This document shows, piece after piece, positions 16,095 to 49,248 of a stretch of 64,000 bases of DNA. The stretch is from positions 1 through 64,000 of the forward strand of contig JAFWTA010000022.1 in the NCBI GenBank assembly GCA_017519145.1. The letters are read 5' to 3'. Numbering within the stretch: the stretch's first letter is position 1; each line of letters starts with the position of its first letter. Both the position numbers and the translations under genes were made by a program. Below the pieces are notes generated by a model, which saw only the letters and a program-made list of their open reading frames with translations, ran no database searches and had not been told where the DNA came from. The stretch comes from Ruminococcus sp. Lineage in GTDB: Bacteria; Bacillota; Clostridia; Oscillospirales; Ruminococcaceae.

Positions 16095-16095
16095 A

Positions 16096-17378: not shown

Positions 17379-18427
17379 TTCAGTTCCACATACCTTTCTA
17401 TCCCTGCGCTCTCAAAGCTGTGGGAATTATAGTAAAGCGCCGACGCTCCGTCAAGAAGCGGCAGCAGCAGTATTCCTCCGGTTCCTTCTCCAAGTCTGAG
17501 ACCGCCGTCGATAACGGCTCTGAGCCCCAGCTTTTCCAGAAGCATCCTGCCTGCAGGCTCCGCCGAAACATGGCCTGCAAGCATATAATCCTTGCAGTCC
17601 GGGGCAAGCATCGAAGCAAGCACCGCCGAAACTGCTGAAATAACTCCGTCTATTATGACAGTGACACCGTATACGGCACCTCCGAGGAAAAGTCCTGTCA
17701 TTCCCGCTATCTCATAGCTGCCAAGCTTAGCCATGAGTTCAGCAGCACCGCAGTCATAGGAAGAGTTTACCTCAATGGCACGTTTAACGGCTCCGATCTT
17801 GCGGCGGAGCCCCTCGGTGGTGAGTCCTGCGCCCCTGCCTGTGACAGTCTCGGGCGCAAGCCCAAGTATCACCGATGAAAGAGCAGCTGTGGGAGTTGTG
17901 TTGCCTATACCCATTTCTCCCGTAACTACCGCCTTAACACCCTCATCAGCCAGCTTCCCGACAATATCCATTCCAACTGCGATGGCACTCTCCGCCTGCT
18001 GTACAGTCATTGCCGGACCGGCAGCGATATTGCCCGTACCGTGGGCGATCTTCCTGATGATGAGCTTTTCGCAGGAGGATTCCCCCTCCATGCCCACATC
18101 GACCGCCAGCACCTCAGCACCATAGACTGCCGCCAGAGCGTTTATATTGGATCTTCCGCAGGCTATCGCCTCTGCGCAGGCAAGAGTGACGGAGCTGTCC
18201 GTCTGAGTGACTCCCTCGGCGGTAACGCCGTTGTCACCGCACATGACAACAACCGCCCGTTTGGAAATATCGGGGGCGACAGTCCGCTGGACCGCGGCTA
18301 CCCTGTCCCACATCTCCTCAAGGGCACCGAAGCTGCCAAGGGGCTTTGCCACGCTGTCCCAGTGCTCCTGTGCCCTTTCGGCAAAAGACCTGTCAGCAGG
18401 CCTGATAAGCTTTATCCTTTCCATCAT
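17375..18427 (-). CDS. cobT: Nicotinate-nucleotide:dimethylbenzimidazole phosphoribosyltransferase
   Basis: 350 residues, standard length. Activates the lower-ligand base as alpha-ribazole phosphate. Seen are the GDNGVTAEGV segment, GEMGIGNTTPTAAL, and the C-terminal LRLGEGTGG with the catalytic Glu. No bza or bluB genes are in the window, so the origin of the base (made elsewhere, salvaged or a different base) is unknown. Overlaps cbiA and cobU by four bases each. Confidence 0.95.
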   Translation of the reverse strand: MMERIKLIRPADRSFAERAQEHWDSVAKPLGSFGALEEMWDRVAAVQRTVAPDISKRAVVVMCGDNGVTAEGVTQTDSSVTLACAEAIACGRSNINALAAVYGAEVLAVDVGMEGESSCEKLIIRKIAHGTGNIAAGPAMTVQQAESAIAVGMDIVGKLADEGVKAVVTGEMGIGNTTPTAALSSVILGLAPETVTGRGAGLTTEGLRRKIGAVKRAIEVNSSYDCGAAELMAKLGSYEIAGMTGLFLGGAVYGVTVIIDGVISAVSAVLASMLAPDCKDYMLAGHVSAEPAGRMLLEKLGLRAVIDGGLRLGEGTGGILLLPLLDGASALYYNSHSFESAGIERYVELK

Positions 18428-19764
18428 TTACCTCCATATGCAGCGCAGGCAGCTGCGAAGCGCTCAGCAAGTCTCACATCCGAATAAAAGTACAGATGGG
18501 GAAATCCTGCGTACAGTGCAGGTGAAGCGTGAACACATCTCCAGCTCCTGCCGTCGGACTTGGCAGCAGTGAAGCCGTCACCGCAGTCGGTGCTGTCCCA
18601 GTAATGGAACTCATGGGCAGGAAAGCTGTCACCCTTGCTGCACAGAAGGCAGTCCCTATCGGCGGTCATAGTGACGTAGCCGAAGCGCTGAAGCCTGTCT
18701 GTCTCGTAGGCAGTTCCGCTGATGACACCTGCCATAGGGTATTCCGCACCGTCGGCAGTCCTTATGCTGTCGTGGAGATACATGAAGCCGCCGCACTCAG
18801 CAATGGTGGGAAGTCCGCTGTTTATCGCCGTTTTTATACATTCCCTCATGGAGCTGTTCGCCGCCAGCCTTTCCGCGTGGAGCTCGGGATAGCCGCCGCT
18901 GAGAATGAGTCCGCAGCAGTTTTCGGGCAGCTTTTCGTCCTCCATGGGCGAGAAGTACTCCACCGAGCAGCCAAGCCTTTTCAGCAGGCTTATATTCTCG
19001 GAATATGTAAAGCAGAAAGCTCTGTCCGCCGCAACAGCTATCTTTGGCGAGTTATCTGTGCATATCCTGTGCAGTTTTTGCTCGGTAAAGTCGGGGAAAC
19101 TTCTTTTCGAGACTTCCACAAGCCTGTCAAGGCGGATATGCCGCTCCGCAAGTCTGCCCAATTCGGCAGTTTTTTCCATAAGATCAGCTATCTCGGCAGC
19201 GGTGACAAGTCCAAGTCTGCGGCTCTCTATACCCGGACTTTTCGGCGGCATACAGCCGAAATACTCAGACCCCAGCTCCGCGCATAGCCGCTCTGCCATT
19301 GGGACAAGTCTCGCAGGGAGCCTGTTGAAAATAAAGCCTGTGATATTATTGGGAACCTTGTACGTCAGGAAGCCTTTCATCACTGCGCCTATGGACTCTC
19401 CCGAGCCCTTGCAGTCAAGTACTATCACGGAAGCTGTGTCAGTGATGGCAGCGACCGAGTGAGGAGAGCCCCTGCCGTCAGCACCGTCATAGTAGCCCAT
19501 GACGCCCTCGATCACAGATATATCAGCATTTTGGCTGTTCTCCCACAGCAGCTGCCTTATACAGTTATCATCGCAGAAAAAGCTGTCCAGATTATGAGCG
19601 TCAGCACCGATGATACTGCTGTGAAACATGGGGTCTATATAGTCGGGACCGCACTTGAAGGAGGAGACCGCAAGTCCGCGCGCCTTCAGCGCCGCAAGAA
19701 CTGCACAGGTGACCGTGGTCTTTCCGCAGCCGCTGTGAGTTCCGCCGATGAGAATTCTTTTCAT
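18424..19764 (-). CDS. cbiA: Cobyrinic acid a,c-diamide synthase
   Basis: 446 residues. Amidates the a and c side chains of cobyrinate. The N-terminal ATPase domain starts with GGTHSGCGKTT (8-18), then KCGPDYIDPMFH; the C-terminal amidotransferase domain has LSGGYPELHA and the nucleophile Cys in AECGGFMYL. Full length, four-base overlaps on both sides. Confidence 0.95.
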   Translation of the reverse strand: MKRILIGGTHSGCGKTTVTCAVLAALKARGLAVSSFKCGPDYIDPMFHSSIIGADAHNLDSFFCDDNCIRQLLWENSQNADISVIEGVMGYYDGADGRGSPHSVAAITDTASVIVLDCKGSGESIGAVMKGFLTYKVPNNITGFIFNRLPARLVPMAERLCAELGSEYFGCMPPKSPGIESRRLGLVTAAEIADLMEKTAELGRLAERHIRLDRLVEVSKRSFPDFTEQKLHRICTDNSPKIAVAADRAFCFTYSENISLLKRLGCSVEYFSPMEDEKLPENCCGLILSGGYPELHAERLAANSSMRECIKTAINSGLPTIAECGGFMYLHDSIRTADGAEYPMAGVISGTAYETDRLQRFGYVTMTADRDCLLCSKGDSFPAHEFHYWDSTDCGDGFTAAKSDGRSWRCVHASPALYAGFPHLYFYSDVRLAERFAAACAAYGGK

Positions 19765-20951
19765 ATAAGCTTCCTTTTAATGATAAATACAGGATTTGAG
19801 GCGGACAACATGGTGTGAGAGCCTACTTTATTAGTCCTTGTTACGGCTATCTGTGAGATATCAGCTTCAAAGCCGAGCTCATCAAATACTGCGATGCACT
19901 CCGAAAGCGTTTCCAGAGAGACCGCAGTAACAGTCAGTCTTATATTGCTGTTTTTCTCATAAGCCGCTGTGACTATCTCCCTGAGTTCACCTGCCGAACC
20001 GCCGATGAAAACGCAGTCGGGAGGCGGCAGTTCACCGAGCAGCTCAGCCGCTCTGCCCGTATGGATAACAATATTATCACAGCCGAATTTACGTCGGTTG
20101 CTGTCGATAAGCTTCGCCGCCTCGGGAGACTTCTCCACGGAATGGACAGTACCTCGCTCGCAGCGCACAGCCATCTCAACGGACACAGAACCCGTTCCGC
20201 CGCCTATATCCCAGCATATGTCCTCCCTGCCGATATCAAGCCCTGCAACGGCAATTCCGCGTACCTCCGCCTTGGTCATAGGCACCCTGTCCCTGATAAA
20301 CATATCATCGGGAATACAGCTCAGAACGCAGCGCTCAAATCCGGGATTTTCCGCCAGCAGTACACACAGCTCCGCAGTCTTGATATCCGAAAGGTCAGCA
20401 GCTGTTCCGCTTGTTATCCTCTCTTCGGCATAGCCCAGTCTTTCGCCGATATGCACTGTAACGCCTCCCATTCCGTAGTCACACAGCCGCCTGCACACTT
20501 CCGCTGCCGTCACATCTCCGCCGAGGAGAAAAAACGTAAGCCTGTGAGCTCGGACCGCTCTGGCGATATTGCCGCTTTTGCCGTGTAGACTGACGAAATT
20601 GCAGTCGGACCAGTCCATTTTCAGTTTAGAGAAAAGGTAGACAGGTGAAGATATACCGCTGATAAACTCCACATCATGGTCGCGGAGCGCCTCTGCAAGC
20701 CGCGCCGCACCGCTGAAAAATCCGCAGTCTCCCGACATGAGCACCGCCGCTGCGGAAAAGCTGTTCTCCGCAAGAAAACGCGCTATCTCAGAACTTCTGT
20801 ACTCCTCCAGAACGACCTTTCCGCAGAAGCGGTATCCCTCCACCATGCGCCTTGCGCCGATGATGACCTCTGCTTCTTCTATGGCAGACCGTGCCTCGAC
20901 GGTCAGAGTCCTGCTGCCGTCGGCACCTGTGCCTACGATGTATACCTTCAC
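19761..20951 (-). CDS. cbiET: Fused CbiE-CbiT precorrin-7 methyltransferase / decarboxylase
   Basis: 396 residues, a CobL-type fusion. The N-terminal half (1 to about 200) is the CbiE C5-methyltransferase with VGTGADGSRTLT and LMSGDCGFFSGA; the C-terminal half is CbiT, with the SAM site DIGGGTGSVSVEMA near 240 and the VFIGGSAGEL block. It methylates C5 and C15 and decarboxylates the acetate side chain on ring C. Salmonella has these as two genes. Four-base gap from cbiJ. Confidence 0.93.
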   Translation of the reverse strand: MKVYIVGTGADGSRTLTVEARSAIEEAEVIIGARRMVEGYRFCGKVVLEEYRSSEIARFLAENSFSAAAVLMSGDCGFFSGAARLAEALRDHDVEFISGISSPVYLFSKLKMDWSDCNFVSLHGKSGNIARAVRAHRLTFFLLGGDVTAAEVCRRLCDYGMGGVTVHIGERLGYAEERITSGTAADLSDIKTAELCVLLAENPGFERCVLSCIPDDMFIRDRVPMTKAEVRGIAVAGLDIGREDICWDIGGGTGSVSVEMAVRCERGTVHSVEKSPEAAKLIDSNRRKFGCDNIVIHTGRAAELLGELPPPDCVFIGGSAGELREIVTAAYEKNSNIRLTVTAVSLETLSECIAVFDELGFEADISQIAVTRTNKVGSHTMLSASNPVFIIKRKLI

Positions 20952-20955
20952 ATTG

Positions 20956-21705
20956 TCACCTCCTCATGCCGCATATCAGCGACTTTATCTCCTCCATTGT
21001 ACTGCCCTTTTCCTCGGGACGGGCAAGCACAACTGTCTTTATGCCGCATTTTTCCGCAGCTTCAAGCTTCTCGGGGAAACCTCCTGCCGCACCGCTCTCC
21101 TTGGTCACCATCAGTGCCGCACCGCTCAGCTCTATGTGAACCATATTCTGCCGAACCGTAAACGGTCCCCTTTCAAGTATAAGGTGCTCCTCGGGAAAGC
21201 CCAGCTCCGCGCACAGAGCTCTTACACTGTCAGTGGGGAGAGCTCTCACCCAGATCCTTTCTGCGAAGTTATGCACCTCCGTAAGCTTTGGAAGCTCCTT
21301 GCTGCCGAGGGTGCTGAGAATACTGCCGACACTTTTATTGATGAGCTCCACAAGCTCGTCCATATCCCCTACGGTCATGCAGTCCCCAAGCTCCGATGAG
21401 CTGCGCAGGAGCCTGTGATATGGCAGTTCCACAGCTTTGCAGGCGGCGATGATATTAGCTGTGACCTCAGTGGCATATGGGTGGGTAGCGTCAATTACCG
21501 CCCTGCACCCCAGCTCACTCATAAGAGCTGCCATTTCGTCACTGTCAAGCCTCCCCACAAGGACGCGAAGCCCTTTTTCGTGAGGGAGAAGCTCTCCTCC
21601 GTACTTCGTTGCCACGGACACCGCAGCCGAAACTCCGCAGGCGCAGCAGTACTGAGCGAGCTCCCTGCCCTCGGTAGTTCCGCCGAATATGAGAAGCTCA
21701 CACAT
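20956..21705 (-). CDS. cbiJ: Precorrin-6A / cobalt-precorrin-6A reductase
   Basis: 249 residues, standard. NADPH-dependent reduction of the macrocycle. The N-terminus ILIFGGTTEGREL type sequence (LLIFGGTTEG, 4-13), DATHPYA and the VTKESGAAGGFPEKLEAA block near the C-terminus are the family marks. It overlaps cbiH by 8 bases. Confidence 0.93.
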   Translation of the reverse strand: MCELLIFGGTTEGRELAQYCCACGVSAAVSVATKYGGELLPHEKGLRVLVGRLDSDEMAALMSELGCRAVIDATHPYATEVTANIIAACKAVELPYHRLLRSSSELGDCMTVGDMDELVELINKSVGSILSTLGSKELPKLTEVHNFAERIWVRALPTDSVRALCAELGFPEEHLILERGPFTVRQNMVHIELSGAALMVTKESGAAGGFPEKLEAAEKCGIKTVVLARPEEKGSTMEEIKSLICGMRR

Positions 21706-22426
21706 TTCTGTAGCCTCTCGGCGTCACCATTTTTCCGCCTATGACCTTGGTCTCGGAGTTGCCGATGAATACGGTAGTGAACATATCCACGGCAGTATCC
21801 CGGAGCTCCCCGAGTGTGAGGACTCTGCTTTCCTGTCCCTCCCTGCCGATATTGCGGACGTATCCGCAGACTGTGTCCGCAGGGCGATAACCGAGGATAA
21901 TGTCGCAGGCACGCATAAGGTAGTCCGCACGTTTTTTCGACGAGGGATTATACAGGGCGATGACGAAATCCCCCTCCGCCGCACAGCGAAGCCGCTTCTC
22001 TATCTTCTCCATTGGAGTCAGCAGGTCGGAAAGGCTGATGAGGGCAAGGTCGTGGGTCATTGGCGAGCCGAGAACAGCTCCGCCGCTGAATGCCGCTGAA
22101 ACTCCTGCCACCACCTCAATATCCGCGTCGGGATAATCCGAGGAAAGCTCATAGGCAAGCCCTGCCATGCCGTAGAGTTGACTGTCTCCGCTGCAAACAA
22201 GGGACACTGTCTTACCGTTTTGTGCCAGCTCAAGCGCAAGGGCAACGCGGTCACGTTCCTGTCTCATGCCTGTGGAAAGGCACTCCTTTTCCGGGAAGAA
22301 GCTCTTTATCTGCTCCGCATAGACGGTATAGCCCACAACAACATCGCTGTTCATCACAGCCTGCTGCGCTTCGAGGGTCATGCCCTGACGGCTTCCGCAG
22401 CCGATGCCCACAACGTAAAGCTTCAT
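21698..22426 (-). CDS. cbiH: Cobalt-factor III C17-methyltransferase
   Basis: 242 residues of the uroporphyrin-III C-methyltransferase superfamily. Carries out ring contraction with C17 methylation. The N-terminus VGIGCGSRQGMTLEA and the SAM loop CSGDSQLYGMAG (the more usual GDPGIYGMA varied) are visible; IALYNPSSKKR is the conserved C-terminal block of CbiH/CobJ. No extra C-terminal ferredoxin-like part. Overlaps cbiG by four bases. Confidence 0.93.
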   Translation of the reverse strand: MKLYVVGIGCGSRQGMTLEAQQAVMNSDVVVGYTVYAEQIKSFFPEKECLSTGMRQERDRVALALELAQNGKTVSLVCSGDSQLYGMAGLAYELSSDYPDADIEVVAGVSAAFSGGAVLGSPMTHDLALISLSDLLTPMEKIEKRLRCAAEGDFVIALYNPSSKKRADYLMRACDIILGYRPADTVCGYVRNIGREGQESRVLTLGELRDTAVDMFTTVFIGNSETKVIGGKMVTPRGYRNV

Positions 22427-23460
22427 AGCACGTTCCTCTCAAAATCCAGATATACGGGAGCCTCAGCCGCTGCCACGGTAACTCCCTCAAAGGCTGTCTT
22501 GCGGAGCACGAGTTTACCTCCGCTGCACAATACAGCACTGCGCTCGCAGACGTTGTCTGCCCCTGTGGTCTCGCGCACAAATTCCGAGGAGTCAAAATCT
22601 CCCTTTACCGCCATAAGCTCCTCGGCAGTATATGTCCTCAGGTCAATATCCCGACGTCCGCAGAAGCCGAGAAGTCCCTCCTCCCGGGCTTTCAGGTCAA
22701 TGGTAGCCACCTGACATACCCTCTCTGCGTCGATGCCTGCCTCAGCGAGAGCCCTGCTTACCGCTGTCTCAACAGCTTCGGCAGATGTCCCCTTTTTGCA
22801 GCCGATACCCATAACGATATTCCTCGGTACAAGGCGCAGAGTAACGTCAAATGGCTTCACATCGCTCTCCGTGCCAACATAGATGCCTGTCCTGCAAATG
22901 CCGAACTCCGTCAGCTCGTCGGGAAGTCCTCCGTGTCTGTACTCCGTGGAAAAGCCCACCTTTTCATCGTCCAGCACCTCGGCAGCTATCTCCTTTGCAG
23001 CAGCAAGGTCGGTGATTATAAGACCATTTGCAACAGCGAAGCTGTCGGGCGAGAACTGTCCGCCCACATCAGTCGCGGTAGTGATGACAGCGGTATTTCC
23101 CAAAGCATCAGCAAGCACCTCCGCAAGTCGGTTGGCACCGCCGATATGTCCCGAAAGTACAGGGATAACGAAACGTCCGCTGTCGTCCATGACAATGACA
23201 GCAGGGTCGTCCGCCTTGGTACCCAGCAGAGGAGCAACAGCCCTCACAGCAATACCGCAGGCACAGACAAATATAAAGGCATCGGAGCGCTTGAAAAGCC
23301 GTCCCACCATGCTTCCCATATTCCAGAACACCGCAGCGTTATCATCAGTGTGCTTGTGAAAACAGTAGCGGCTGACCTTGTGTTCACCGCCGAGAAATTC
23401 AGCAGCTCTTTCCGAGAGCTGTCTGCCCTTTTCCGTAACGGAAAAAATCGCTATATTCAT
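22423..23460 (-). CDS. cbiG: Cobalt-precorrin-5A hydrolase
   Basis: 345 residues. Opens the delta-lactone and releases the C20 carbon as acetaldehyde; a marker of the anaerobic, cobalt-first route. N-terminal CbiG domain (FVCACGIAVRAVAPLL, LSGHIGGAN), a middle region, and the C-terminal domain starting MGIGCKKGTSAEAVE. Four-base overlaps with cbiF and cbiH. Confidence 0.94.
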   Translation of the reverse strand: MNIAIFSVTEKGRQLSERAAEFLGGEHKVSRYCFHKHTDDNAAVFWNMGSMVGRLFKRSDAFIFVCACGIAVRAVAPLLGTKADDPAVIVMDDSGRFVIPVLSGHIGGANRLAEVLADALGNTAVITTATDVGGQFSPDSFAVANGLIITDLAAAKEIAAEVLDDEKVGFSTEYRHGGLPDELTEFGICRTGIYVGTESDVKPFDVTLRLVPRNIVMGIGCKKGTSAEAVETAVSRALAEAGIDAERVCQVATIDLKAREEGLLGFCGRRDIDLRTYTAEELMAVKGDFDSSEFVRETTGADNVCERSAVLCSGGKLVLRKTAFEGVTVAAAEAPVYLDFERNVL

Positions 23461-24215
23461 TTGGCTTCTGCCTTTCTGAACTCAGTTTCAAAGTTTTTGT
23501 CATAGAGCTTTGAAAGCTCATAATCGTCACCGAGGAAATCTCCCACGGTTATGAGAGCGGTCTTGCTTATGCCGTTTTCACGGGCAGCCTGCGCAAGAGT
23601 GCCCACGGTACAGCGCACCACCTTTTCGTCCTGCCATGTGGCTTTGTAGACTATTGCCGCAGGAGTATCGGCACTGTATCCGCCCTCTGTAAGCCGAGCG
23701 GAAAGCTCCTCCGTCATGGAAGCGCTTAGGAAAATGACCATGGTCGCATGATGAGCGGCAAGGCTCTCTATGCTTTCCTTTTCGGGGACGGGAGTCCGTC
23801 CTGCCATACGGGTGAGTATCACCGTCTGTGACACATGGGGCAGAGTGTATTCCGCCTTCAGAGCCGCCGCAGCTCCGCAGAAGGAGCTGACCCCGGGAGT
23901 AACATTATAAGCTATACCGAGAGCGTCCAGCCTGTCCATCTGCTCCCTTATGGCGCCGTAAACCGACGGGTCTCCCGTATGGAGCCTTACGGTGGCAAGT
24001 CCCTCAGCCTCAGCCTTCTCCATGACCTCTATTACCTCGTCAAGATGCATTAGGGCGCTGTTGTATATCCTGCACCCCTGCTTTGCATAGTCAAGGAGCT
24101 GAGGGTTTACCAGCGAGCCTGCATAGATTATAACGTCAGCCTGTTCCAGCAACCGCTTTCCCCTGAGAGTTATAAGATCGGCAGCACCGCAGCCTGCTCC
24201 CACAAAATCAACCAT
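23457..24215 (-). CDS. cbiF: Cobalt-precorrin-4 C11-methyltransferase
   Basis: 252 residues. N-terminus VGAGCGAADLITLRG, YAGSLVNP, and the SAM loop LHTGDPSVYGAI identify CbiF/CobM. The SASMTEEL and AALKAEYTLP blocks agree. Overlaps cbiD by 8 bases. Confidence 0.94.
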   Translation of the reverse strand: MVDFVGAGCGAADLITLRGKRLLEQADVIIYAGSLVNPQLLDYAKQGCRIYNSALMHLDEVIEVMEKAEAEGLATVRLHTGDPSVYGAIREQMDRLDALGIAYNVTPGVSSFCGAAAALKAEYTLPHVSQTVILTRMAGRTPVPEKESIESLAAHHATMVIFLSASMTEELSARLTEGGYSADTPAAIVYKATWQDEKVVRCTVGTLAQAARENGISKTALITVGDFLGDDYELSKLYDKNFETEFRKAEAK

Positions 24216-25350
24216 TTTCTTCCTCCGTAATTGCCTTTATGAGCTCCTCCGCAAGAGCCGTCCTCACGCGGAGCTCACGCTTATATGAAAACGCCAGAGC
24301 CGCAATTGGTATCGAGTCCTTTACTCTTGCGCGAAGATAGCTGTCAATGCGCTGAGAGAGTATCTCCGCAGTTTTTTCAAGGTATCCGCCTTCATCAAGT
24401 ATATCCATGGCAGCGTCCGCAGTGGCGCATTCGGGCAGCCTTTTCAGTGTATCCGTATCAGCTCCCGCAAGTACACCGCAGGTGACAAGGACGTCCATTC
24501 TGCCGTCCGCCCATGAGGAGTGGGTGTTCATGATACCTGCACCCAGCTTTACCAGCTTTCCGATATGCCCAACGATGAGAATTGACTCAAAGCCAAGCTC
24601 CATGCCGATGTCGATGGCATCACCTATGAAGTTGCTGCAAGTGACGCTTCTCTCCAGTGAAAAGGGCAGCTCTCTCTGAACGAAGTCCTCGCTGTAATTA
24701 CCGATAGTCAGGAGCATATTCCGCTGACCTGCGGCACGGCGCATATTCGCCTCCGCGCGGATAGTCTCAATGACGGCAGAATTGCTCATAGGCTCCACGA
24801 TACCGCTGGTACCGATGACGGAGATGCCTCCCTCTATGCCCATGCGAGGATTGAAGGTCTTTTTCGCCAGCTCCACACCCTGAGGTATGGAGACTGTCAC
24901 CTCGAAGCCTCCCGAGTAGCCGTATTTCTCGGCAATTTCCGCAACAGCCCCACTTATCATGCGCCGCGGCACGGTGTTTATGGCAGCGTCCCCCACAGGA
25001 CGATCAAGCCCTGCCTTTGTGACGACCCCCACACCCTCGCCGCCGAGGATAACAGTTCCTTCGGGGATAAGTCTGACACGGGAATATACCCTGATACCAT
25101 TGGTTATGTCGGGGTCGTCGCCGCTGTCCTTTACTATGGCACAGGAAGCGCTTCCCTCATTCAGCTCAGCGTCCGCCACATCAAGGTCAAGCATGATGCC
25201 CTTGGGAGTCATGAGCTTCACGCCCGTGACTTCATGCCCCGTGAATATCATCTCCGCCGCAGCCTTTGCGGCAGCTGCCGCGCAGGAGCCCGTGGTATAT
25301 CCGCATCTGAGCTTTTCCGCGCCCCTGTAAACATATTCCTCAAGTCTCAT
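24208..25350 (-). CDS. cbiD: Cobalt-precorrin-5B C1-methyltransferase
   Basis: About 380 residues. CGYTTGSCAAAAAKAA near the N-terminus is the CbiD signature; IGTSGIVEPMSN and the ILIVGHIGKLVKLGAGIMN block follow. The start is taken at 25350, behind GGGAGAG and overlapping cbiL by 11 bases; the frame to 25410 would add 20 residues encoded inside cbiL. It marks the anaerobic route together with cbiG. Confidence 0.94.
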   Translation of the reverse strand: MRLEEYVYRGAEKLRCGYTTGSCAAAAAKAAAEMIFTGHEVTGVKLMTPKGIMLDLDVADAELNEGSASCAIVKDSGDDPDITNGIRVYSRVRLIPEGTVILGGEGVGVVTKAGLDRPVGDAAINTVPRRMISGAVAEIAEKYGYSGGFEVTVSIPQGVELAKKTFNPRMGIEGGISVIGTSGIVEPMSNSAVIETIRAEANMRRAAGQRNMLLTIGNYSEDFVQRELPFSLERSVTCSNFIGDAIDIGMELGFESILIVGHIGKLVKLGAGIMNTHSSWADGRMDVLVTCGVLAGADTDTLKRLPECATADAAMDILDEGGYLEKTAEILSQRIDSYLRARVKDSIPIAALAFSYKRELRVRTALAEELIKAITEEENG

Positions 25351-26035
25351 CTCTGCTCTCCCCGATGATGAACACCGTAAAATAGCCAAGGTCATCGGTG
25401 ACCTCATCAAGGCTGCCGAATATCCTCTCGTTATCGAGTCCGCAGTTCTCTATTACAGAAGTACGCATGGCAAGTCCCTTTTTTTGCAGTAATGCAATAA
25501 GTTCACCGCTTTTGCTGCCTGTTTTCATTATGACCTTCGTTCCCTCACAGTCGAGCAGCTTCTCAAAGTCTCCGCAGCCATAGGGAAGTATATGCAATGG
25601 CTCGCTTCCAAGACACAGGGGCTTTCCGAGAGAGGCAGCAGCAGCGCTGAAGCTTGTGACTCCCGGGCATATCTCTGCTTTGAAGCCCCGTTTCTCAACA
25701 CGCTTCGCAATGCGGCTGAATGTGGAATAAACGGAGATATCCCCCAGTGTGGGGACTGCAACGTCCTCGTTTTCCAGCAGTCCGCAGAGCATTTCCGCTG
25801 TTTCGTCATAGTTTCTGTCCAGTGCCTCCCTGTCCCTGCACATAGGCAGATCCAGATAGACCTTACGCTTGCGTGACAGGTCCGCAGCCTGCTCCGCAAT
25901 TGACAGAGCCAGACTGTTCTCACCGTGAGTCCGCGGAACTGCGATAACACCGCAGCTCTTCAGTATACGCACCGCTCTCAGGGTCATGAGCTCCGGGTCG
26001 CCTGCTCCTACACTTACGCCGAAAAGAATTCCCAT
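25340..26035 (-). CDS. cbiL: Cobalt-factor II C20-methyltransferase
   Basis: 231 residues, first pathway-specific methyltransferase in this operon. N-terminus GVSVGAGDPELMTLRAV and the PTLGDISVYSTF loop are characteristic. Its ATG overlaps the ksgA stop by one base, so no riboswitch or promoter can lie directly in front of it. The cobaltochelatase (cbiK/cbiX) and the sirohydrochlorin steps are not in the window. Confidence 0.93.
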   Translation of the reverse strand: MGILFGVSVGAGDPELMTLRAVRILKSCGVIAVPRTHGENSLALSIAEQAADLSRKRKVYLDLPMCRDREALDRNYDETAEMLCGLLENEDVAVPTLGDISVYSTFSRIAKRVEKRGFKAEICPGVTSFSAAAASLGKPLCLGSEPLHILPYGCGDFEKLLDCEGTKVIMKTGSKSGELIALLQKKGLAMRTSVIENCGLDNERIFGSLDEVTDDLGYFTVFIIGESRDET

Positions 26036-43028: not shown

Positions 43029-43057
43029 TTGACACCGTATATGCCCTGTGCTATAAT
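43029..43057 (+). promoter_or_regulatory. Promoter of the cobalamin uptake operon
   Basis: TTGACA (43029-43034), 17 bases, TATAAT (43052-43057); transcript start predicted near 43064, just ahead of the riboswitch. Confidence 0.85.
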
Positions 43058-43067
43058 GTATCTGTAA

Positions 43068-43165
43068 TATGGTGTCTGAAACTGAGGGAAGCACGGTGAG
43101 ATTCCGTCACAGCAGTCACTGCCGTACAGTCGGATCGCTCGTCAGACACAGCAGGTCATTAACGT
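43068..43165 (+). promoter_or_regulatory. Cobalamin riboswitch
   Basis: The core has GAGGGAAGCACGGTGAGA, TTCCGTCACAGCAG and GTCACTGCCGT, matching the conserved receptor of cobalamin riboswitches (B12 box normally GCCACTG, here GTCACTG). A compact closing helix GTGTCTGA (43072-43079) with TCAGACAC (43142-43149) makes it a short version. It is followed at 43228-43256 by a terminator, then by the ECF operon, so binding probably causes premature termination. Confidence 0.85.
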
Positions 43166-43227
43166 TTTTGGGCAAGGAAGAACGTATGCCGAAAGCTTCG
43201 CAGCTTACTGCGGAGTTATTTTGCTGC

Positions 43228-43256
43228 GCTTTTCTGCACCGCGGAAAAGCTTTTTT
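43228..43256 (+). terminator. Riboswitch-controlled terminator
   Basis: GCTTTTC (43228-43234) pairs with GAAAAGC (43244-43250), followed by six T, 35 bases ahead of the first start codon. Confidence 0.75.
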
Positions 43257-43290
43257 GTTGCCTGCATAAAATATAAAGGAGTAGGTTACT

Positions 43291-44229
43291 ATGAAAAAAT
43301 CATTCGCTATGGCAGCTGCACTGGCAATGGCATTCTCAGCTGTTGCTGCAAACACTTACGCTGAGGGCGAGACAAAGGTCTATGTCACTGTCTCTGACAG
43401 CAACAGTGCTCTGGTACTGACTCAGGAGCCCGTTAATGTTACCGATATCGACGGCGACGGCAAGCTCACTGTCAACGATGCTCTCTACATCGCTCACGAG
43501 GAAAACTACGAGGGCGGCGCAGCAGCAGGCTACAAGACTTCTGTGGGACAGTACGGTCTTGGTCTTGACGTACTCTGGGGCAAGGAAAATAAGCAGTCCT
43601 TCGGCTACTATGTAAACTCAAAGATGGCTAATGGTCTCACAGATGAGATAAAGGACGGCGACTACGTTGACGCTCTCACCTTCCCCGACCCTTCCGACCT
43701 TGACTATCATTACAGCTGGTTCGACGCAAGAGAGGGCGAGGGTGACCCCGACAAGGAAGTTACTCTCCAGCTCAAGGCTCTCTCCTTCGACGCTTCATGG
43801 GCTCCCGTTGAGAACCCCGTTGAAGGTGCAAAAATCACCATCAACGGCAATGAGACAGACTTCGTTACCGACGCCGACGGAAAGGCTGTCGTAAAGTTCA
43901 CCGAAGCAGGCAGGAACGTTGTCAGCGCAAAGGGCGGCAATATCAAGATAGCTCCTCCCTCATATGTTATGCAGATAAGCGGTGAAGCTGCTTCAACTAC
44001 ATCTACCACCACAACTACTACAACTACCACAACTTCCACGACAACATCAACTGCAGCAACTTCAGCTTCCGCAAAGACAACTGCAAAGGCTTCCACAACA
44101 GCTAAGGCTACAACAACATCAAAGAACAACTCTCCCAAGACAGGAGACTCGGGCGCAGCTGTCGCACTGGTTTCACTCGGAGCAGCAGCCGCTGCAGCAT
44201 TCGCTCTCAGACGCAGAAATGAGAAGTAA
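43291..44229 (+). CDS. Wall-anchored DUF4430-like protein with EF-hand-like loop
   Basis: 312 residues. Signal peptide (1 to about 25). Residues 28-130 resemble the DUF4430/transcobalamin beta domain (GYKTSVGQYGLGLDVLWG, SFGYYVNSKMANG, IKDGDYVDALTF) but include an inserted calcium-loop-like DIDGDGKLTVNDALYIAHE (about 51-69). A beta-sandwich-like region (about 145-230) follows, then a Thr/Ser/Ala linker with a run of Thr codons, and a C-terminal sorting signal SPKTG, hydrophobic span, RRRNEK. Likely a wall-bound cobalamin-binding or relay protein. First gene behind the riboswitch; AAGGAG ahead of the ATG. Its stop overlaps the next gene by 11 bases. Confidence 0.78.
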   Translation: MKKSFAMAAALAMAFSAVAANTYAEGETKVYVTVSDSNSALVLTQEPVNVTDIDGDGKLTVNDALYIAHEENYEGGAAAGYKTSVGQYGLGLDVLWGKENKQSFGYYVNSKMANGLTDEIKDGDYVDALTFPDPSDLDYHYSWFDAREGEGDPDKEVTLQLKALSFDASWAPVENPVEGAKITINGNETDFVTDADGKAVVKFTEAGRNVVSAKGGNIKIAPPSYVMQISGEAASTTSTTTTTTTTTTSTTTSTAATSASAKTTAKASTTAKATTTSKNNSPKTGDSGAAVALVSLGAAAAAAFALRRRNEK

Positions 44230-46081
44230 GATACTCACGGTCTGCCTGAGTTCTGCACTGATATTTGCAGCCGCTCCCTGCATACCCGTTATGCAGGAGG
44301 CGCACTGTGAGCATACCGTCGGTGAGGTCGATGACCTTATCGGCGGTATCGTTGATTATAAGCTCGGTCAGGTCGGTGCAGGCAGCATAGAAGAATGGCT
44401 GGCGGGCGATATCGCCGCAGGTGCAGGCACCTCCACGGACTGGTACGCCCTGACTCTCAGCCAGTGCGGATATACAGACCTTTCGGCATACGAAAGCTCC
44501 CTTGAGAGCTATCTCAGCAGCAACAACATCACCTCTGCCACCTCCCGTGAGAAATACGCTCTGGGACTCTGTGCGGCAGGCAGCAGAAGCAGCTATATCT
44601 CCGATATCCTTGACACCTCAATAGGTCAGCAGGGCGTTATGAGCTGGATCTACGGGCTCCATATCCTCAACAACGGCTACACCTGCCCCTCATACACCGC
44701 CGAGTCCGTAACGGACAGCATACTCTCCATGCAGCTTGATGACGGCGGCTGGGCACTGTGGGGAGAATACGGCGACATAGACGTTACCGCCATGACCGTT
44801 CAGGCTCTTGCTCCCCGATATGATGAAAGCAGTCAGGTGTCGGAGGCTGTGGACAGGGCTGTGGACTTCCTTTCCGAGCGGCAGAAGGAGGACGGCGGCT
44901 ACGAGAGCTTCGGCAATCCCAACGCTGAGAGCACTGCACAGGTGCTCACGGCTGTATCGGCTCTGGGGATAGACTGCCGTTATGACGACCGCTTCATCAA
45001 GAACGGCAATGACCTTATCGACGGCATAGCGCAGTACAGGCTGCCCGACGGAAGCTTCTCCCACATAAAGGACGGGGGCTTCAACGAGACCGCCACGGTG
45101 CAGGCATACTACTCATTTGTGGCGTTCAGGCGCATGACCGAGGGGAAGTCTCCCCTGCTGGTGCTTGACAACAGGGCGTCGGCACAGTCCCCACAAGGCG
45201 GAAATGAGGGCAGCGGCAGCAATAACGGCAGCTCTCAGGGTGGCAGCTCCACGGCAAATGAGGGGGTCAGCAGTACAAAGGCTGCGGCTCCCGTAACGGG
45301 AAACACCACCACCACCGCAGCCACGGCAAAGTCCACCGTGACTACCACAACGGGTACGGGCACACAGACCTCCACGAGCAGGCTGACTTCATCGGGGACT
45401 TCCCTTTCCTCAGCGGCAGCTTCACAGACCGTTACCGTTATCACATCGGCTGAGAAGCTTGACAAACAGCACTCGCGCAGAAGCTACAAGCCCTTTGCCA
45501 TACTCATTGTACTGGGAGCGGCTGCTGTGATCGCTCTCATCATCTTCATCATGGGCAAGCGCAGCTACAAGAACTTCATCTTCCTCGGAATAGCGGCGGC
45601 TGCGGCGATAGCGGTCATTATCCTGACGGATATTCGCTCACCCGAGGAGTATTACAGCGGCGAGAAAAAGCACAAGGACAAGGTCATCGGCTCTGTCACT
45701 ATGGAGATACGCTGCGACACCATCGCAGGGAAGTCCGACTCGGAGCATATCCCCGAGGACGGCGTGATACTGGCTCCCACAGCCTTTGACATCGAGAGCG
45801 GCGACACGGTGTTCGACATACTGACCGAGGCTGCACAGACCTACGGCATTCAGGTGGAGAATAAGGGCAGCGCAGGAAGCTCCCACGGAATGGTCTACAT
45901 CTCGGGCATAAACTACATCTACGAATTCGATTTCGGCGACCTTTCGGGCTGGGTATATCATGTCAACGGCATCACTCCCTCGCGTAACTGCGGAGAGTAT
46001 GTCCTCAGCGACGGAGACCGCATAGAATGGCTCTACACCTGCGAGGTGGGGCACGACCTTAACGAGGTATACGAGGAATGA
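44219..46081 (+). CDS. Intrinsic-factor-like membrane protein (alpha-barrel plus DUF4430)
   Basis: 620 residues. Signal peptide (1 to about 24); an alpha/alpha-barrel of prenyltransferase/terpenoid-cyclase repeat type (about 35-300) with LDDGGWALWG and QKEDGGYESFG turns; a Gly/Ser/Thr linker (about 310-415); two membrane spans close together (about 424-445 and 451-472); and a C-terminal DUF4430 domain (about 485-618) with GWVYHVNGITPS and LSDGDRIEWLYT. The two spans form a hairpin, so both soluble domains face outward. Barrel plus DUF4430 is the domain pair that encloses B12 in animal intrinsic factor and transcobalamin. The start at 44219 overlaps the previous gene. Confidence 0.82.
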   Translation: MRSKILTVCLSSALIFAAAPCIPVMQEAHCEHTVGEVDDLIGGIVDYKLGQVGAGSIEEWLAGDIAAGAGTSTDWYALTLSQCGYTDLSAYESSLESYLSSNNITSATSREKYALGLCAAGSRSSYISDILDTSIGQQGVMSWIYGLHILNNGYTCPSYTAESVTDSILSMQLDDGGWALWGEYGDIDVTAMTVQALAPRYDESSQVSEAVDRAVDFLSERQKEDGGYESFGNPNAESTAQVLTAVSALGIDCRYDDRFIKNGNDLIDGIAQYRLPDGSFSHIKDGGFNETATVQAYYSFVAFRRMTEGKSPLLVLDNRASAQSPQGGNEGSGSNNGSSQGGSSTANEGVSSTKAAAPVTGNTTTTAATAKSTVTTTTGTGTQTSTSRLTSSGTSLSSAAASQTVTVITSAEKLDKQHSRRSYKPFAILIVLGAAAVIALIIFIMGKRSYKNFIFLGIAAAAAIAVIILTDIRSPEEYYSGEKKHKDKVIGSVTMEIRCDTIAGKSDSEHIPEDGVILAPTAFDIESGDTVFDILTEAAQTYGIQVENKGSAGSSHGMVYISGINYIYEFDFGDLSGWVYHVNGITPSRNCGEYVLSDGDRIEWLYTCEVGHDLNEVYEE

Positions 46082-46956
46082 GAAGCTTTTCTGAATACAA
46101 TCCCATAGCTGTGGCGGTGTGGTTCTTCAGCGTCACGGGAGTAGCCATGTTTTGCAGCTATCCCATACTCATGGCAATATCGCTTTCGGGAGCGGTGCTC
46201 TTCTTCCTCATACGCAACGGCTTCACCCACGGGAAAACTCACCTGTTTTTCTGGCTGCTTTTCGCAGTCCTTGCACTGGCTAACCCCCTTGTCTCACACA
46301 ACGGCAAGACGGTGCTGTTCGTCATGAACCACAATCCCGTAACTCTGGAAGCTGCGCTTTACGGCGTAAATTCGGCAGTTATGATAATCGGGGTGCTGTA
46401 CTGGTTCCGCTCATTCACACAGATAATGACCTCGGAGAAGCTCCTCTACATCACGGGAGCTCTCTCCCCGAAGCTGTCACTGGTGCTGTCAATGGCGCTC
46501 AGGTCCGTCCCCCTTTTCAGCCGCCAGTCCGCAAAGATAAGCGCTGCACAGACCGCAATGGGACTGTACAAAGACGACAATATCGTTGACGACATACGGG
46601 GAAAGTCCCGTATCTTCTCCATCATGGTAACATGGGCTCTGGAGAACGGCATAATCACCGCCGACAGCATGGAGGCGAGGGGCTACGGCATCGGCAGGCG
46701 GACACAGCTCCGCAGATTCGGCTTCCGAACGGGAGATATACTTCTCCTGACGGCAACGCTGGCGCTTCTGGGCGTGACAGCTGCCGCCATCGGTACGGGA
46801 GCTCTCAGCTTTGAATTCTACCCGTCCATGAAGATAAAAGAGCTCACATTTCTCGGTATTTCGGGGATAATTTCCTACGCAGCACTGGTGTTGCTGCCAG
46901 TAATCATAGAAACGGAGGCGGAACTGAGATGGAAATACTTGCGGTCAGGGATATGA
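46078..46956 (+). CDS. ecfT: ECF transporter transmembrane subunit EcfT
   Basis: 292 residues, several membrane spans (about 15-115 and 220-285) around a cytoplasmic region. The coupling helices with AxMALRSVP-type sequence (LSMALRSVPLFSRQ) and a second motif SMEARGYGIGRRT contact the ATPases. ATGA overlap with the preceding gene and a 28-base overlap with the ATPase gene show tight coupling. Confidence 0.92.
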   Translation: MRSFSEYNPIAVAVWFFSVTGVAMFCSYPILMAISLSGAVLFFLIRNGFTHGKTHLFFWLLFAVLALANPLVSHNGKTVLFVMNHNPVTLEAALYGVNSAVMIIGVLYWFRSFTQIMTSEKLLYITGALSPKLSLVLSMALRSVPLFSRQSAKISAAQTAMGLYKDDNIVDDIRGKSRIFSIMVTWALENGIITADSMEARGYGIGRRTQLRRFGFRTGDILLLTATLALLGVTAAAIGTGALSFEFYPSMKIKELTFLGISGIISYAALVLLPVIIETEAELRWKYLRSGI

Positions 46957-48560
46957 CCTTTACCTACCCCACCTGCAAAGAGCCTGCCATTCGGGATATA
47001 TCCCTCACCCTCGGACGGGGCGAGATGGCTGTGCTATGCGGTGCTACGGGAAGCGGCAAGTCCACTCTTCTGCGTCTGCTCAAGCGTGAGCTTGCTCCCA
47101 TGGGAGATATGAGCGGCAGTGTCGCTTTCTGCGGAAAGGCTCTCGGGGAGCTTTCCGACAGGGAGTCCGCCTCGGATATCGGCTTCGTCATGCAGAACCC
47201 CGAACAGCAGATAGTCACCGACAAGGTCTGGCACGAGCTGGCATTCGGTCTGGAAAATCTTGGAACTCCTCCTGCTCAGATATCGCGGAGGATAGCGGAA
47301 ATGGCAAGCTACTTCGGTATCGGCGACTGGATAAACAGGGATACCGCGGTGCTGTCCGGCGGTCAGAAACAGCTCCTCAACCTTGCTTCCGTACTTGTCA
47401 TGCAGCCAAAGCTGCTCATTCTCGACGAGCCAACAGCTCAGCTCGACCCCATTGCCGCCTCGGACTTCATTGCAACTCTGCGGCGTATCTCCAACGATCT
47501 CTCCATAACCATACTCATGGCGGAGCACCGTCTTGAGGACGTTGTGCCCCTGTGCGACAGGCTCCTTGTAATGGACGGCGGCTCCCTTATAGCCGACGGC
47601 TCTCCCTCACAGGTCATTGCCGCTCTCGGCAAAAGGGGCGACATAATGTGCGGGATGCCTGCGGCTTCGCGTCTTTACGCGAAGCTCAGCGGCAGCGGAC
47701 CCTGTCCGCTGACAGTCCGCGAGGGCAGGAACTTCATAGAGAGCAGCTACGGTAACACTACTCGCGGACTACCGCAGGCATCCCCTGCGGCTGAGAGTGA
47801 AACGGCGCTGGAATACAGCGAGGTCTGCTTCCGCTATGACAGAAACGGCAGGGACGTCCTTGACGGACTTAGCCTGAAAGTCTCTCGGGGTGAGATATAC
47901 TGCATTCTCGGGGGAAACGGCTCGGGAAAGACCACCTCGCTCTCGGCGGCGGCAGGTCTCATAAAGCCGTACAGCGGCAAAATAAAGGTGTTCGGGAAGA
48001 AGCTCAGGGACTACAAGAACCGCTCACTTTACCGTGATTGCCTTGCGATGCTGCCTCAGGACGTTCAGACCGTCTTTCTCAGAAGCACCGTCAGAGAGGA
48101 GCTTGCGGAGTGCAATGCGGAGCTGAAAGAGCTTCCCTACGACCTTTCTCCCCTGCTGGAAAAACACCCCTACGACTTGTCGGGGGGACAGCAGCAGCTT
48201 GTGGCACTGGCAAAGGTACTGGCTGCACATCCCCGTCTGCTGCTTCTGGACGAGCCCACAAAGGGACTTGACGGGGCGGCAAAGGAGAGCTTCACAGAGC
48301 TGCTCAAAAGGCTGAAAGCCGACGGTCTCACCGTTGTTATCGTCACCCATGATGTGGAGTTCGCAGCCCTCTGCGCAGACAGGTGCGCTATGTTCTTCGG
48401 GGGCAGGATAGTCTCGGAGGGAGCTCCCCGTGAGTTCTTCTCGGAAAACAGCTTCTACACCACCGCAGTGAGCCGCATGACAAGGGGCTATTACGAGGGA
48501 GCCGTCACCGTTGAGGACGCTGCTGCGCTGTGCCGTATGAACGGCAGAAAGGAGAGCTGA
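46929..48560 (+). CDS. Fused ECF ATPase (EcfA-EcfA')
   Basis: 543 residues with two complete ABC domains. First: Walker A GATGSGKSTL (37-46), signature LSGGQKQ, Walker B LLILDEPTAQLD. Second: GGNGSGKTTS (about 328), LSGGQQQ, LLLLDEPTKGLD. In most Firmicutes these are two genes, ecfA1 and ecfA2; here one chain serves as the heterodimer. It powers substrate release through EcfT. ATG start inside the end of ecfT, 2-base gap to the S component. Confidence 0.93.
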   Translation: MEILAVRDMTFTYPTCKEPAIRDISLTLGRGEMAVLCGATGSGKSTLLRLLKRELAPMGDMSGSVAFCGKALGELSDRESASDIGFVMQNPEQQIVTDKVWHELAFGLENLGTPPAQISRRIAEMASYFGIGDWINRDTAVLSGGQKQLLNLASVLVMQPKLLILDEPTAQLDPIAASDFIATLRRISNDLSITILMAEHRLEDVVPLCDRLLVMDGGSLIADGSPSQVIAALGKRGDIMCGMPAASRLYAKLSGSGPCPLTVREGRNFIESSYGNTTRGLPQASPAAESETALEYSEVCFRYDRNGRDVLDGLSLKVSRGEIYCILGGNGSGKTTSLSAAAGLIKPYSGKIKVFGKKLRDYKNRSLYRDCLAMLPQDVQTVFLRSTVREELAECNAELKELPYDLSPLLEKHPYDLSGGQQQLVALAKVLAAHPRLLLLDEPTKGLDGAAKESFTELLKRLKADGLTVVIVTHDVEFAALCADRCAMFFGGRIVSEGAPREFFSENSFYTTAVSRMTRGYYEGAVTVEDAAALCRMNGRKES

Positions 48561-48561
48561 T

Positions 48562-49248
48562 ATGCTGCTGATAAAAAGCAAAAGGCTCCGTGACACTATC
48601 CGCGTGGTGGTGCCCTTCATAGCAGTTCCCCTCATTACAGTCCTTGGAGCCCTCGCCTTTGACGAAAAAAAGCACATAATCATAGCCCTTGCAGTTGCGG
48701 TGTCGGCACTGCTGCTCTTTGCGGCAGGCTTCGAGAAGAAGTCCACAGGAACACGCCGCATGGTCATTGCAGCCGTTATGACTGCCCTTTGCTTCGCAGG
48801 AAGGTTCATACCCATACTCAAACCCATAGCCGCCCTCACCATAATCACAGCCCTGTATCTCGGCGGAGAAGCAGGCTTCCTCGTGGGAGCCATGTCCGCC
48901 ATACTCTCCAACTTCTACTTCGGACAGGGTCCGTGGACAGCCTTTCAGATGCTGGCATGGGGACTCATCGGGCTCTTCGCAGGCATATTCTCGGAAAAGC
49001 TGCTGAAAAGCCGTGCCCTGCTCCTCATCTACGGAGCCCTGACGGGTATCGCCTACTCATTTATAATGGACATCTGGACAGTCCTCTGGTACAACCGCGG
49101 CTTTGACATAAAGCTCTATCTGGCGGCACTGGTGTCCGCTGTGCCCTATACTCTCAGCTATGCGGTGTCAAACGTGCTGTTTCTGTATCTGCTGGCAAAA
49201 CCCTTCGGTGAGAAGCTCTCCCGTATCAAGACCAAGTACGGGGTGTGA
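48562..49248 (+). CDS. ECF transporter S component, probably cobalamin-specific
   Basis: 228 residues, about six membrane spans. Sequence blocks RMVIAAVMTALCFAGRF and FYFGQGPWTAFQMLAWG resemble S components found with cobalamin riboswitches (CblT/CbrT-like). An S component binds the vitamin and topples in the membrane. Cobalamin is inferred from the riboswitch and neighbours; no binding residues are identified here. Last gene of the operon. Confidence 0.82.
   Translation: MLLIKSKRLRDTIRVVVPFIAVPLITVLGALAFDEKKHIIIALAVAVSALLLFAAGFEKKSTGTRRMVIAAVMTALCFAGRFIPILKPIAALTIITALYLGGEAGFLVGAMSAILSNFYFGQGPWTAFQMLAWGLIGLFAGIFSEKLLKSRALLLIYGALTGIAYSFIMDIWTVLWYNRGFDIKLYLAALVSAVPYTLSYAVSNVLFLYLLAKPFGEKLSRIKTKYGV

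Follow-up and report, generated by a model that had tools for sequence, protein, structure and literature searches.

Organization of the locus

We analyzed a 64,000-nucleotide stretch of DNA from Ruminococcus sp. (hereafter the window; its source genome measures 3.17 Mb in 65 contigs and is 94% complete). The operon region under study lies at window positions 43029-49248 on the + strand, where a cobalamin (vitamin B12) riboswitch is followed by five genes encoding two proteins with predicted extracellular domains and an energy-coupling factor (ECF) importer. The features of the region are as follows.

43029..43057, + strand: sigma-70-type promoter (TTGACA-17-TATAAT, 12 of 12 consensus matches, TG before the -10 element)
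43073..43148, + strand: AdoCbl-II cobalamin riboswitch aptamer (RF01689, 39.6 bits, cut-off 36.5, E = 6e-6)
43162..43185, + strand: hairpin 3' of the aptamer, possibly the L13 (kissing-loop) hairpin (fold; similar stretch in relatives)
43228..43258, + strand: intrinsic terminator, 10-bp hairpin at 43228-43250 plus T-run (fold and terminator scan)
43291..44229, + strand: gene 1, secreted, sorting-signal-anchored protein of 312 amino acids (aa) with a Thr-rich stalk (reading frame; NF033846)
43444..43479, + strand: 12-residue dockerin/EF-hand-like loop DIDGDGKLTVND, gene 1 aa 52-63 (alignment conservation)
44219..46081, + strand: gene 2, 620 aa, with signal peptide, toroid, S/T-rich tether, transmembrane hairpin and DUF4430 (Pfam, hydropathy, alignment)
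44306..45193, + strand: alpha/alpha-toroid region of gene 2, aa 30-325 (toroid models, solved toroids)
45494..45634, + strand: membrane hairpin within gene 2, with helices at aa 426-444 and 454-472 (hydropathy)
45800..46039, + strand: DUF4430 (transcobalamin C-terminal-type SLBB) domain of gene 2, aa 528-607 (PF14478)
46078..46956, + strand: gene 3, EcfT (CbiQ-type) transmembrane component (Pfam CbiQ, 29.9 bits, cut-off 25)
46929..48560, + strand: gene 4, fused EcfA-EcfA' ATPase with two ATP-binding cassette (ABC) domains (NCBIfam ECF_ATPase_1, 338, cut-off 315)
48562..49248, + strand: gene 5, CbrT-type S component of 228 aa (solved-structure match 6fnp_A)

The overlap is 11 bases between genes 1 and 2, 4 between genes 2 and 3, and 28 between genes 3 and 4, while a single base separates genes 4 and 5. 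The first-pass annotation of this DNA, which had five overlapping genes, is therefore right for the stepwise overlaps of genes 1 to 4 and wrong for the last pair.

Promoter, riboswitch and terminator

The promoter was the best of 10 promoter-like sites in a scan of the region, in which 3.5 were expected. The aptamer downstream of it lacks the P6 extension that many relatives have. An RF01689-type element likewise lies upstream of the operon in relatives. Some short-P6 AdoCbl-II forms favour methyl- or aquocobalamin over adenosylcobalamin. The leader at 43150-43275 folds with a z-score of -3.2, and none of 200 shuffled sequences was equally stable. The terminator scan of the region found 11 terminator-like sites against 5.0 expected; the one at 43228-43258 is probably the expression platform of the riboswitch. 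The RF01689 match above its cut-off and the hairpin with its T-run thus bear out the cobalamin riboswitch and terminator that had been read from the letters of the DNA.

Gene 2 combines a toroid and a DUF4430 domain with a membrane hairpin

The nearest gene 2 proteins in named records come from Ruminococcus, several of them from R. flavefaciens, with 63-71% identity over the best segment. We aligned 71 gene 2 homologues. DUF4430 (PF14478) scored 55.0 bits in gene 2 itself and up to 59 in the genome search (cut-off 23.8), and the genome yielded no further DUF4430 site; among the homologues, 71 of 71 had the domain at E <= 1e-3. The toroid scored 24.0 bits with Pfam SQHop_cyclase_C, just below the cut-off of 26.1. 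Among the homologues, again at E <= 1e-3, SQHop_cyclase_C was found in 45 and Prenyltrans in 33 of the 71. In comparisons with solved structures (177,635 sequences searched), the family profiles reached squalene-hopene-cyclase-type chains with E = 1.3e-10 (full gene 2) and E = 1.6e-17 (toroids), followed by weak matches of the toroid to alpha-2-macroglobulin (0.07) and Rab geranylgeranyltransferase (1.1). These family profiles place gene 2 in the alpha/alpha toroid superfamily. An earlier description of the product as a membrane protein with an alpha/alpha-barrel and DUF4430 is upheld, by a direct match for DUF4430 and by family matches for the toroid.

Every one of the 71 homologues has exactly two hydrophobic segments in the stretch from aa 322 to 528, no hydrophobic segment follows aa 528 in any of them, and the loop of the membrane hairpin carries a net charge of +2 to +5 in all 71. 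An N-terminal hydrophobic segment is present in 70. The tether between the toroid and DUF4430 has a median length of 96 aa (range 20-169), and about half of its residues are Ser, Thr, Pro, Gly, Asn or Gln. Two segments joined by a positive loop, read with the positive-inside rule, therefore place both the toroid and DUF4430 outside the membrane. This agrees with the location that the first-pass annotation had given to the two domains.

A conserved YISGINYIYEFDFGDLSGW stretch of gene 2 has a position that would fit the ligand-touching beta-hairpin insert after the helix of DUF4430, as judged from sequence. Y568 and W578, invariant in the 71 homologues, lie within this presumed hairpin. In the toroid, GDIDVTA of gene 2 aligns with PDVDDTA of squalene-hopene cyclase, and D186 and D188 are invariant. 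We regard D188 in the GDxDxTA stretch, together with Y568 and W578 in the presumed hairpin, as candidate corrinoid-ligand residues.

In L046, the locus of a close relative, gene 2 (L046:6471-8329) is spread over three frames, through frameshifts, assembly error or decay.

Genes 3 to 5 form an ECF importer with a CbrT-type S component

Gene 3 had no match in NCBIfam beyond its Pfam assignment. Gene 5 matched Pfam ECF-ribofla_trS with 43.9 bits (cut-off 26.7). Among the solved structures, the single gene 5 sequence reached chain A of 6fnp with E = 6e-10. A profile of 26 operon-linked S components had the same chain as its best match, with E = 2.4e-15, the next S component being 4hzu_S at 2.7e-4. 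The alignment of gene 5 with CbrT covers CbrT residues 5-177 of 182. The 6fnp entry is the structure of ECF-CbrT, which imports B12 and cobinamide (PMC5997447). The reading of genes 3 to 5 as EcfT, fused EcfAA' and an S component is thus supported by Pfam and NCBIfam matches, and 6fnp_A specifies the S component as CbrT-type. The T, A and S genes share one operon, as expected of an ECF transporter with a dedicated module, a type that we take to be "group I".

EcfAA' frames of 881-905 aa were observed in three relatives (L060:7557-10271, L065:2738-5380 and L132:13074-15716). In L060 and L065, the S component was matched within the EcfAA' frame, so that A and S seem to be fused.

Gene 1 is a sorting-signal-anchored protein

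The N-terminus of gene 1 resembles a secretion signal, and the C-terminus has the sorting motif, hydrophobic segment (aa 288-306) and basic tail of a sortase-anchored protein. Gene 1 scored 27.7 bits with NF033846, the Ruminococcus NPXTG-anchor model (cut-off 23.5), with SPKTG as its motif. PxTG occurs within the last 60 aa of 40 of the 61 gene 1 homologues that we aligned, a set to which the protein of locus L151 described below does not belong.

Direct tests for DUF4430 were negative. Gene 1 had no match to Pfam PF14478, none of the 61 aligned homologues had one at E <= 0.01, no similarity to the gene 2 domain emerged when the two were compared profile to profile, and the gene 1 profile matched no solved structure. 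In L151 (Pseudoruminococcus massiliensis), the gene standing in the gene 1 place matches DUF4430 (E = 1.4e-8), and its alignment with gene 1 extends over nearly the full length (34.8 bits; E = 2e-9 in another search), part of the score coming from the low-complexity stalk. The protein in the gene 1 place has two DUF4430 copies each in L049 and L054 and one in L055, and in all three it ends with a type I dockerin. Gene 1 probably comprises a diverged DUF4430-like domain plus a beta domain, by a link that runs transitively through L151 only. Of the wall-anchored, DUF4430-like protein proposed at first, the anchor is thus backed by NF033846, while the DUF4430 part fails the direct tests and keeps only this transitive link.

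In the loop DIDGDGKLTVND, D52 and D56 are invariant among the aligned homologues, and D54, G57, T60 and D63 are conserved in at least 90% of them; the strict pattern is present in 47 of 61. This conserved DxDxDG...D loop suggests a calcium site.

The same loop directly precedes the presumed beta-grasp helix of gene 1. L049, L054 and L055 have their full C-terminal dockerin instead of this internal loop. In L044, L045, L051, L052 and L053, a small gene of about 100 aa stands directly upstream of gene 1, and its product reads ...RYPKRSDF...AIKAFLGPWPRALE...

Conservation of the operon

We compared 99 related genomes, including that of the window itself, a first set of 40 fetched loci (set A) and a second set comprising the best 80 of 561 relatives (set B). 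The 620-aa protein was matched at E <= 1e-5 in 50 of the 99 genomes, in some of them with one domain only. By best match, all five genes were found in 27 of the 40 loci of set A, with L054 and L055 having a DUF4430 protein as the first gene. A strict count in set B, requiring the five genes side by side in fixed order with gaps below 800 bases, gave 52 of 80 loci, and all five genes occurred anywhere in the stretch in 58. The remaining loci show contig-end cuts, splits, fusions, rearrangements or missing genes. For example, the ECF genes come first in L096 and L123 and lie on the opposite strand in L150.

RF01689 had 21 matches in 20 of the 99 genomes at E <= 0.001, 10 of them over the cut-off. 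All 10 of the latter, and 13 of the 21 in total, are found upstream of this operon's gene 2 at a distance of no more than about 1.3 kb. We also built a covariance model of the operon leader from 26 sequences, of which 7 came from the 80 loci and the others from the window and relatives. Eight of the 80 loci were dropped because their upstream DNA was too short; for 48 of the remaining 72, this model placed a riboswitch at most 1 kb ahead of the first gene. These counts support a conserved operon and indicate that the gene order, the riboswitch and the anchored protein often travel together.

Comparison with known systems

Animal intrinsic factor, haptocorrin and transcobalamin are soluble and lack a membrane hairpin such as that of gene 2. 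BtuG of Bacteroidetes is a surface B12 binder, and both BtuG and BtuH belong to outer-membrane systems. The animal carriers resemble gene 2 in having a toroid followed by a DUF4430-type domain (PMC1796856, PMC4350170). BtuH is similar in being a surface B12 binder ahead of a transporter, and a btuH homologue occurs near an ECF-like cobamide transporter in Eubacterium siraeum (PMC8941943); the BtuH paper mentions neither DUF4430 nor transcobalamin.

The closest precedent is the work of Burroughs et al. (2007), who described bacterial toroid-SLBB (DUF4430) fusions with CbiO/CbiQ neighbours, sorting-signal anchors and a second SLBB protein (paralogue) in the operon, predicted B12 scavenging, and proposed that the bacterial domain pair was transferred to animals (PMC1796856). 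The first-pass annotation knew of no worked-out description of such an arrangement; the domain pair, the anchors, the CbiO/CbiQ operon and the scavenging role had in fact been predicted in that paper. Its proteins are like gene 2 in that the toroid is N-terminal to DUF4430 and in their signal peptides and Gram-positive anchors, and its systems are like the present operon in the second SLBB protein and in an ECF ATPase and T component encoded in the operon. The word riboswitch is absent from that text, whereas a riboswitch is present here. Nor does the available text name an S component or an interdomain membrane hairpin, both of which we found.

ECF-CbrT of Lactobacillus delbrueckii likewise has a CbrT-type S component and an ECF module (PMC5997447). 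Its module is shared, whereas here the T component and the fused AA' are encoded in the operon. The present operon further differs from it in its two extracellular proteins and in two additional N-terminal hydrophobic segments of the S component. A proteome table of L. rhamnosus carries the label 'Additional lipoprotein component of putative cobalamin ECF transporter' (PMC9963975). By this label the lipoprotein is an extracellular accessory of a cobalamin ECF transporter, as gene 2 would be, but it is small, as judged from label and size. The same source places a DUF4430 protein next to the reductase gene rtpR, and its available text does not state whether this protein is the labelled lipoprotein. 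CbrUVT is catalogued as a B12 uptake system (PMC8123684, PMC6722938), and a table entry 'CbrUVT/BtuBCDF' is given for a group including Ruminococcus albus (PMC8123684). In the open-access literature, we found no experiment on corrinoid binding by a bacterial toroid-DUF4430 protein, which is weak evidence of absence.

B12 economy of the host

The genome encodes the B12-dependent methionine synthase MetH and a corrinoid adenosyltransferase, and no match to the MetE family (PF01717) was found in it. A set of B12 synthesis genes lies in the same window.

11059..26035, - strand: cbi/cob corrin-ring and nucleotide-loop cluster (profile matches, gene order)

The members of this cluster are CbiC, P, CobD, CbiB, CobC-like, CobS, CobU, CobT and CbiA, followed by CbiET, J, H, G, F, D and L. 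The names of its TP_methylase, aminotransferase, phosphatase and GATase_3 members are our assumption, taken from gene order and general knowledge of such clusters. HemC (PF01379) was not found in the genome. It is present in 7 of 60 genomes of the genus (53 have none), in 10 of all 99, and in 8 of the 66 genomes with completeness of 90% or more and contamination of 5% or less. Because few relatives have HemC, a gap in this assembly does not by itself account for the absence. The genome has five TP_methylase matches, of which four are cbi genes and the fifth, as read from its sequence, appears to be RsmI, leaving none for SUMT. With neither HemC nor SUMT, synthesis from the first tetrapyrrole steps looks impossible (HemA, HemB and HemD were not searched). 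The host probably salvages corrinoids or late precursors, and precorrin-2 dependence has likewise been proposed for other gut bacteria (PMC6593275).

We also considered two simpler descriptions of the host. That of a plain B12 auxotroph was dropped in view of the cbi/cob cluster in the window, and that of a full B12 producer was dropped in view of the missing HemC. A cbi/cob cluster with no detectable HemC or SUMT amounts to a corrin ring being finished without a tetrapyrrole supply.

Proposed function and alternative explanations

We consider it likely that this is a B12-repressed salvage operon, combining capture of corrinoids outside the cell with their delivery to an ECF-CbrT importer. The operon itself is real and well conserved, and it very probably functions as a B12 (corrinoid) salvage system. 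The riboswitch, the domains, the topology pattern, the kinship with CbrT and the conservation of the operon are the observations from which we infer the following scheme. With enough intracellular cobalamin, the riboswitch would let the terminator form and the operon would be off; when cobalamin falls, the operon would be transcribed. Gene 1 on the wall may act as a first or accessory B12-binding layer. In the membrane, the tethered toroid and the membrane-near DUF4430 of gene 2 would close on the corrinoid like the two domains of transcobalamin. The corrinoid would then be handed from gene 2 to CbrT (gene 5), and EcfT and EcfAA' (genes 3 and 4) would drive its import at the cost of ATP.

The capture idea is sound and has been in print since 2007. 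To that prediction, the present analysis adds the interdomain membrane hairpin, the riboswitch, the relationship of gene 5 to CbrT and a host that lacks detectable HemC. We advance more tentatively, as somewhat less than an even chance, the picture of a membrane-bound 'intrinsic factor': an ECF transporter with its own extracellular receptor, whose two B12-binding halves are joined via a transmembrane hairpin and whose toroid, on its long tether, closes on the membrane-near DUF4430 domain directly above CbrT, in corrinoid-salvaging, HemC-less hosts with corrin-finishing genes. ECF transporters have been described as working without a separate binding protein (PMC7689651), so a receptor-fed CbrT would be a new transport step. 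If the proposal is true, it would provide an ECF importer with a separate extracellular receptor and reveal a means by which certain Gram-positive bacteria of the gut and rumen compete for B12. Gene 2 is in any case a concrete, well-conserved protein with which to test the 2007 prediction that animal B12 carriers descend from bacterial capture proteins feeding CbiO/CbiQ-type importers (PMC1796856).

Several findings weigh against the salvage scheme or parts of it. Toroid profiles reached no transcobalamin or intrinsic factor chain among the solved structures at E <= 10. A broad DUF4430 profile did reach human transcobalamin-2 at E = 0.68, among chance-level matches: it ranked second, after an unrelated hydrolase (0.61) and before XIAP chains (1.0), with an alignment in register over 81 of 130 positions. 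A narrow DUF4430 profile found no transcobalamin among the solved structures. PF01122, the animal carrier family, had no match in the genome at E <= 10, and 1 of 14 control genomes matched, none over the cut-off. By sequence, the toroid of gene 2 is closer to terpene cyclases than to animal carriers. The close tie to animal intrinsic factor drawn in the first-pass annotation accordingly finds no support from sequence profiles. Evidence for the kinship of bacterial and animal carriers comes from Burroughs et al., who used iterative searches and compared folds, rather than from the present profiles, and we found nothing pointing to B12 being taken from host proteins.

The remaining points of this kind concern the importer, the membrane pattern, the operon and the host. 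Pfam and NCBIfam do not name gene 5 as cobalamin type, and NCBIfam suggests a FolT-type protein below its cut-off. CbrT by itself already binds B12 with nM affinity (PMC5997447) and so does not strictly require a receptor. In 14 of the 71 gene 2 homologues, the toroid stretch includes one or two additional hydrophobic segments; these could come from toroid helices. L139 and L142 hold gene 2 with the other four genes absent within 21 kb. The riboswitch is missing from the counted place in 24 of 72 loci, among them L096 and L123, where it precedes the rearranged operon; in L112, it has only a weak match. Finally, bacteria with such proteins usually lack key B12 enzymes (PMC1796856), and this genome has the cbi/cob cluster.

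The cargo might not be B12 itself but, for the most part, a corrinoid still to be completed or a different cobamide (cobinamide, cobyrinate or pseudo-B12) that is finished or remodelled by the cbi/cob genes of the window. The late cbi/cob set, the lack of HemC here and in 53 of 60 genomes of the genus, and the lack of a TP_methylase left for SUMT all speak for it, as do the uptake of cobinamide by ECF-CbrT (PMC5997447) and the listing of cbrUVT for cobyrinate diamide uptake in a review (PMC8123684). The riboswitch, however, reads the finished cobamide and not the cargo, and in animal carriers DUF4430 stacks against the nucleotide base, a moiety missing from cobinamide (PMC1796856); on balance we find this alternative rather unlikely, though it has the best prospects among those considered. 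It is very improbable that the operon encodes a B12-controlled ECF importer for cobalt (CbiMNQO-like) or for a lower ligand (CblT-like) and that genes 1 and 2 have nothing to do with corrinoids. Gene 3 does match CbiQ and gene 4 cobalt ATPase models, matches common to related ECF modules, and uptake of 5,6-dimethylbenzimidazole by CblT is listed elsewhere (PMC8123684). Yet CbiM and CbiN models are absent among the matches of the five genes. The E value for CbrT, moreover, is eleven orders of magnitude better than that for the solved S component ranked after it, a comparison that did not include CblT; we know of no solved CblT structure.

The other two alternatives concern the extracellular proteins. 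A toroid of gene 2 that is an enzyme of the terpene-cyclase kind would explain why its best solved matches are of the squalene-hopene-cyclase type and why GDIDVTA, with its two invariant Asp residues, lines up with PDVDDTA, which we take to be the catalytic DxDD motif. But gene 2 has Val where DxDD has its third Asp, the fold is common to toroids of many functions, and the toroid is extracellular, fused to DUF4430 and encoded in an ECF operon under a cobalamin riboswitch, all of which makes an enzyme the least probable of the explanations weighed. Genes 1 and 2 could also be general surface adhesins that merely share the operon, a view to which the sorting signal, the S/T-rich stalks and the dockerin domains on the equivalent protein of L049, L054 and L055 lend some colour. 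It is hardly to be expected, given that 52 of 80 loci keep both genes in order alongside the ECF genes, mostly behind a riboswitch.

A second cobalamin riboswitch and a partial CobU gene

A second cobalamin riboswitch, of the classic type, was found elsewhere in the genome (RF00174, 92.9 bits, contig C53:40181-40388).

L071:810-6052, corresponding to contig C53 at about 34.8-40.1 kb: genes after the RF00174 riboswitch

These genes encode a chelatase of the CbiK type whose signal resembles that of lipoproteins, a protein in which a NEAT-like stretch scores 31.5 bits (below the cut-off of 32.8), and a FecBCD/BtuFCD-like transporter comprising a Peripla_BP_2 protein, FecCD and an ABC ATPase. The substrate of this system may be a tetrapyrrole rather than B12, possibly one that is metallated outside the cell and brought in for use by the cbi genes. 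The capture protein of the present operon had initially been contrasted with the simple lipoprotein BtuF usual in Gram-positive bacteria. This contrast fails for this genome because a BtuF/C/D-like transporter, whatever its substrate, stands behind its second cobalamin riboswitch.

Within the cbi/cob cluster, a short second CobU-like gene (window 15696-16094, minus strand) adjoins the full-length CobU gene and matches the C-terminal third of the model only.

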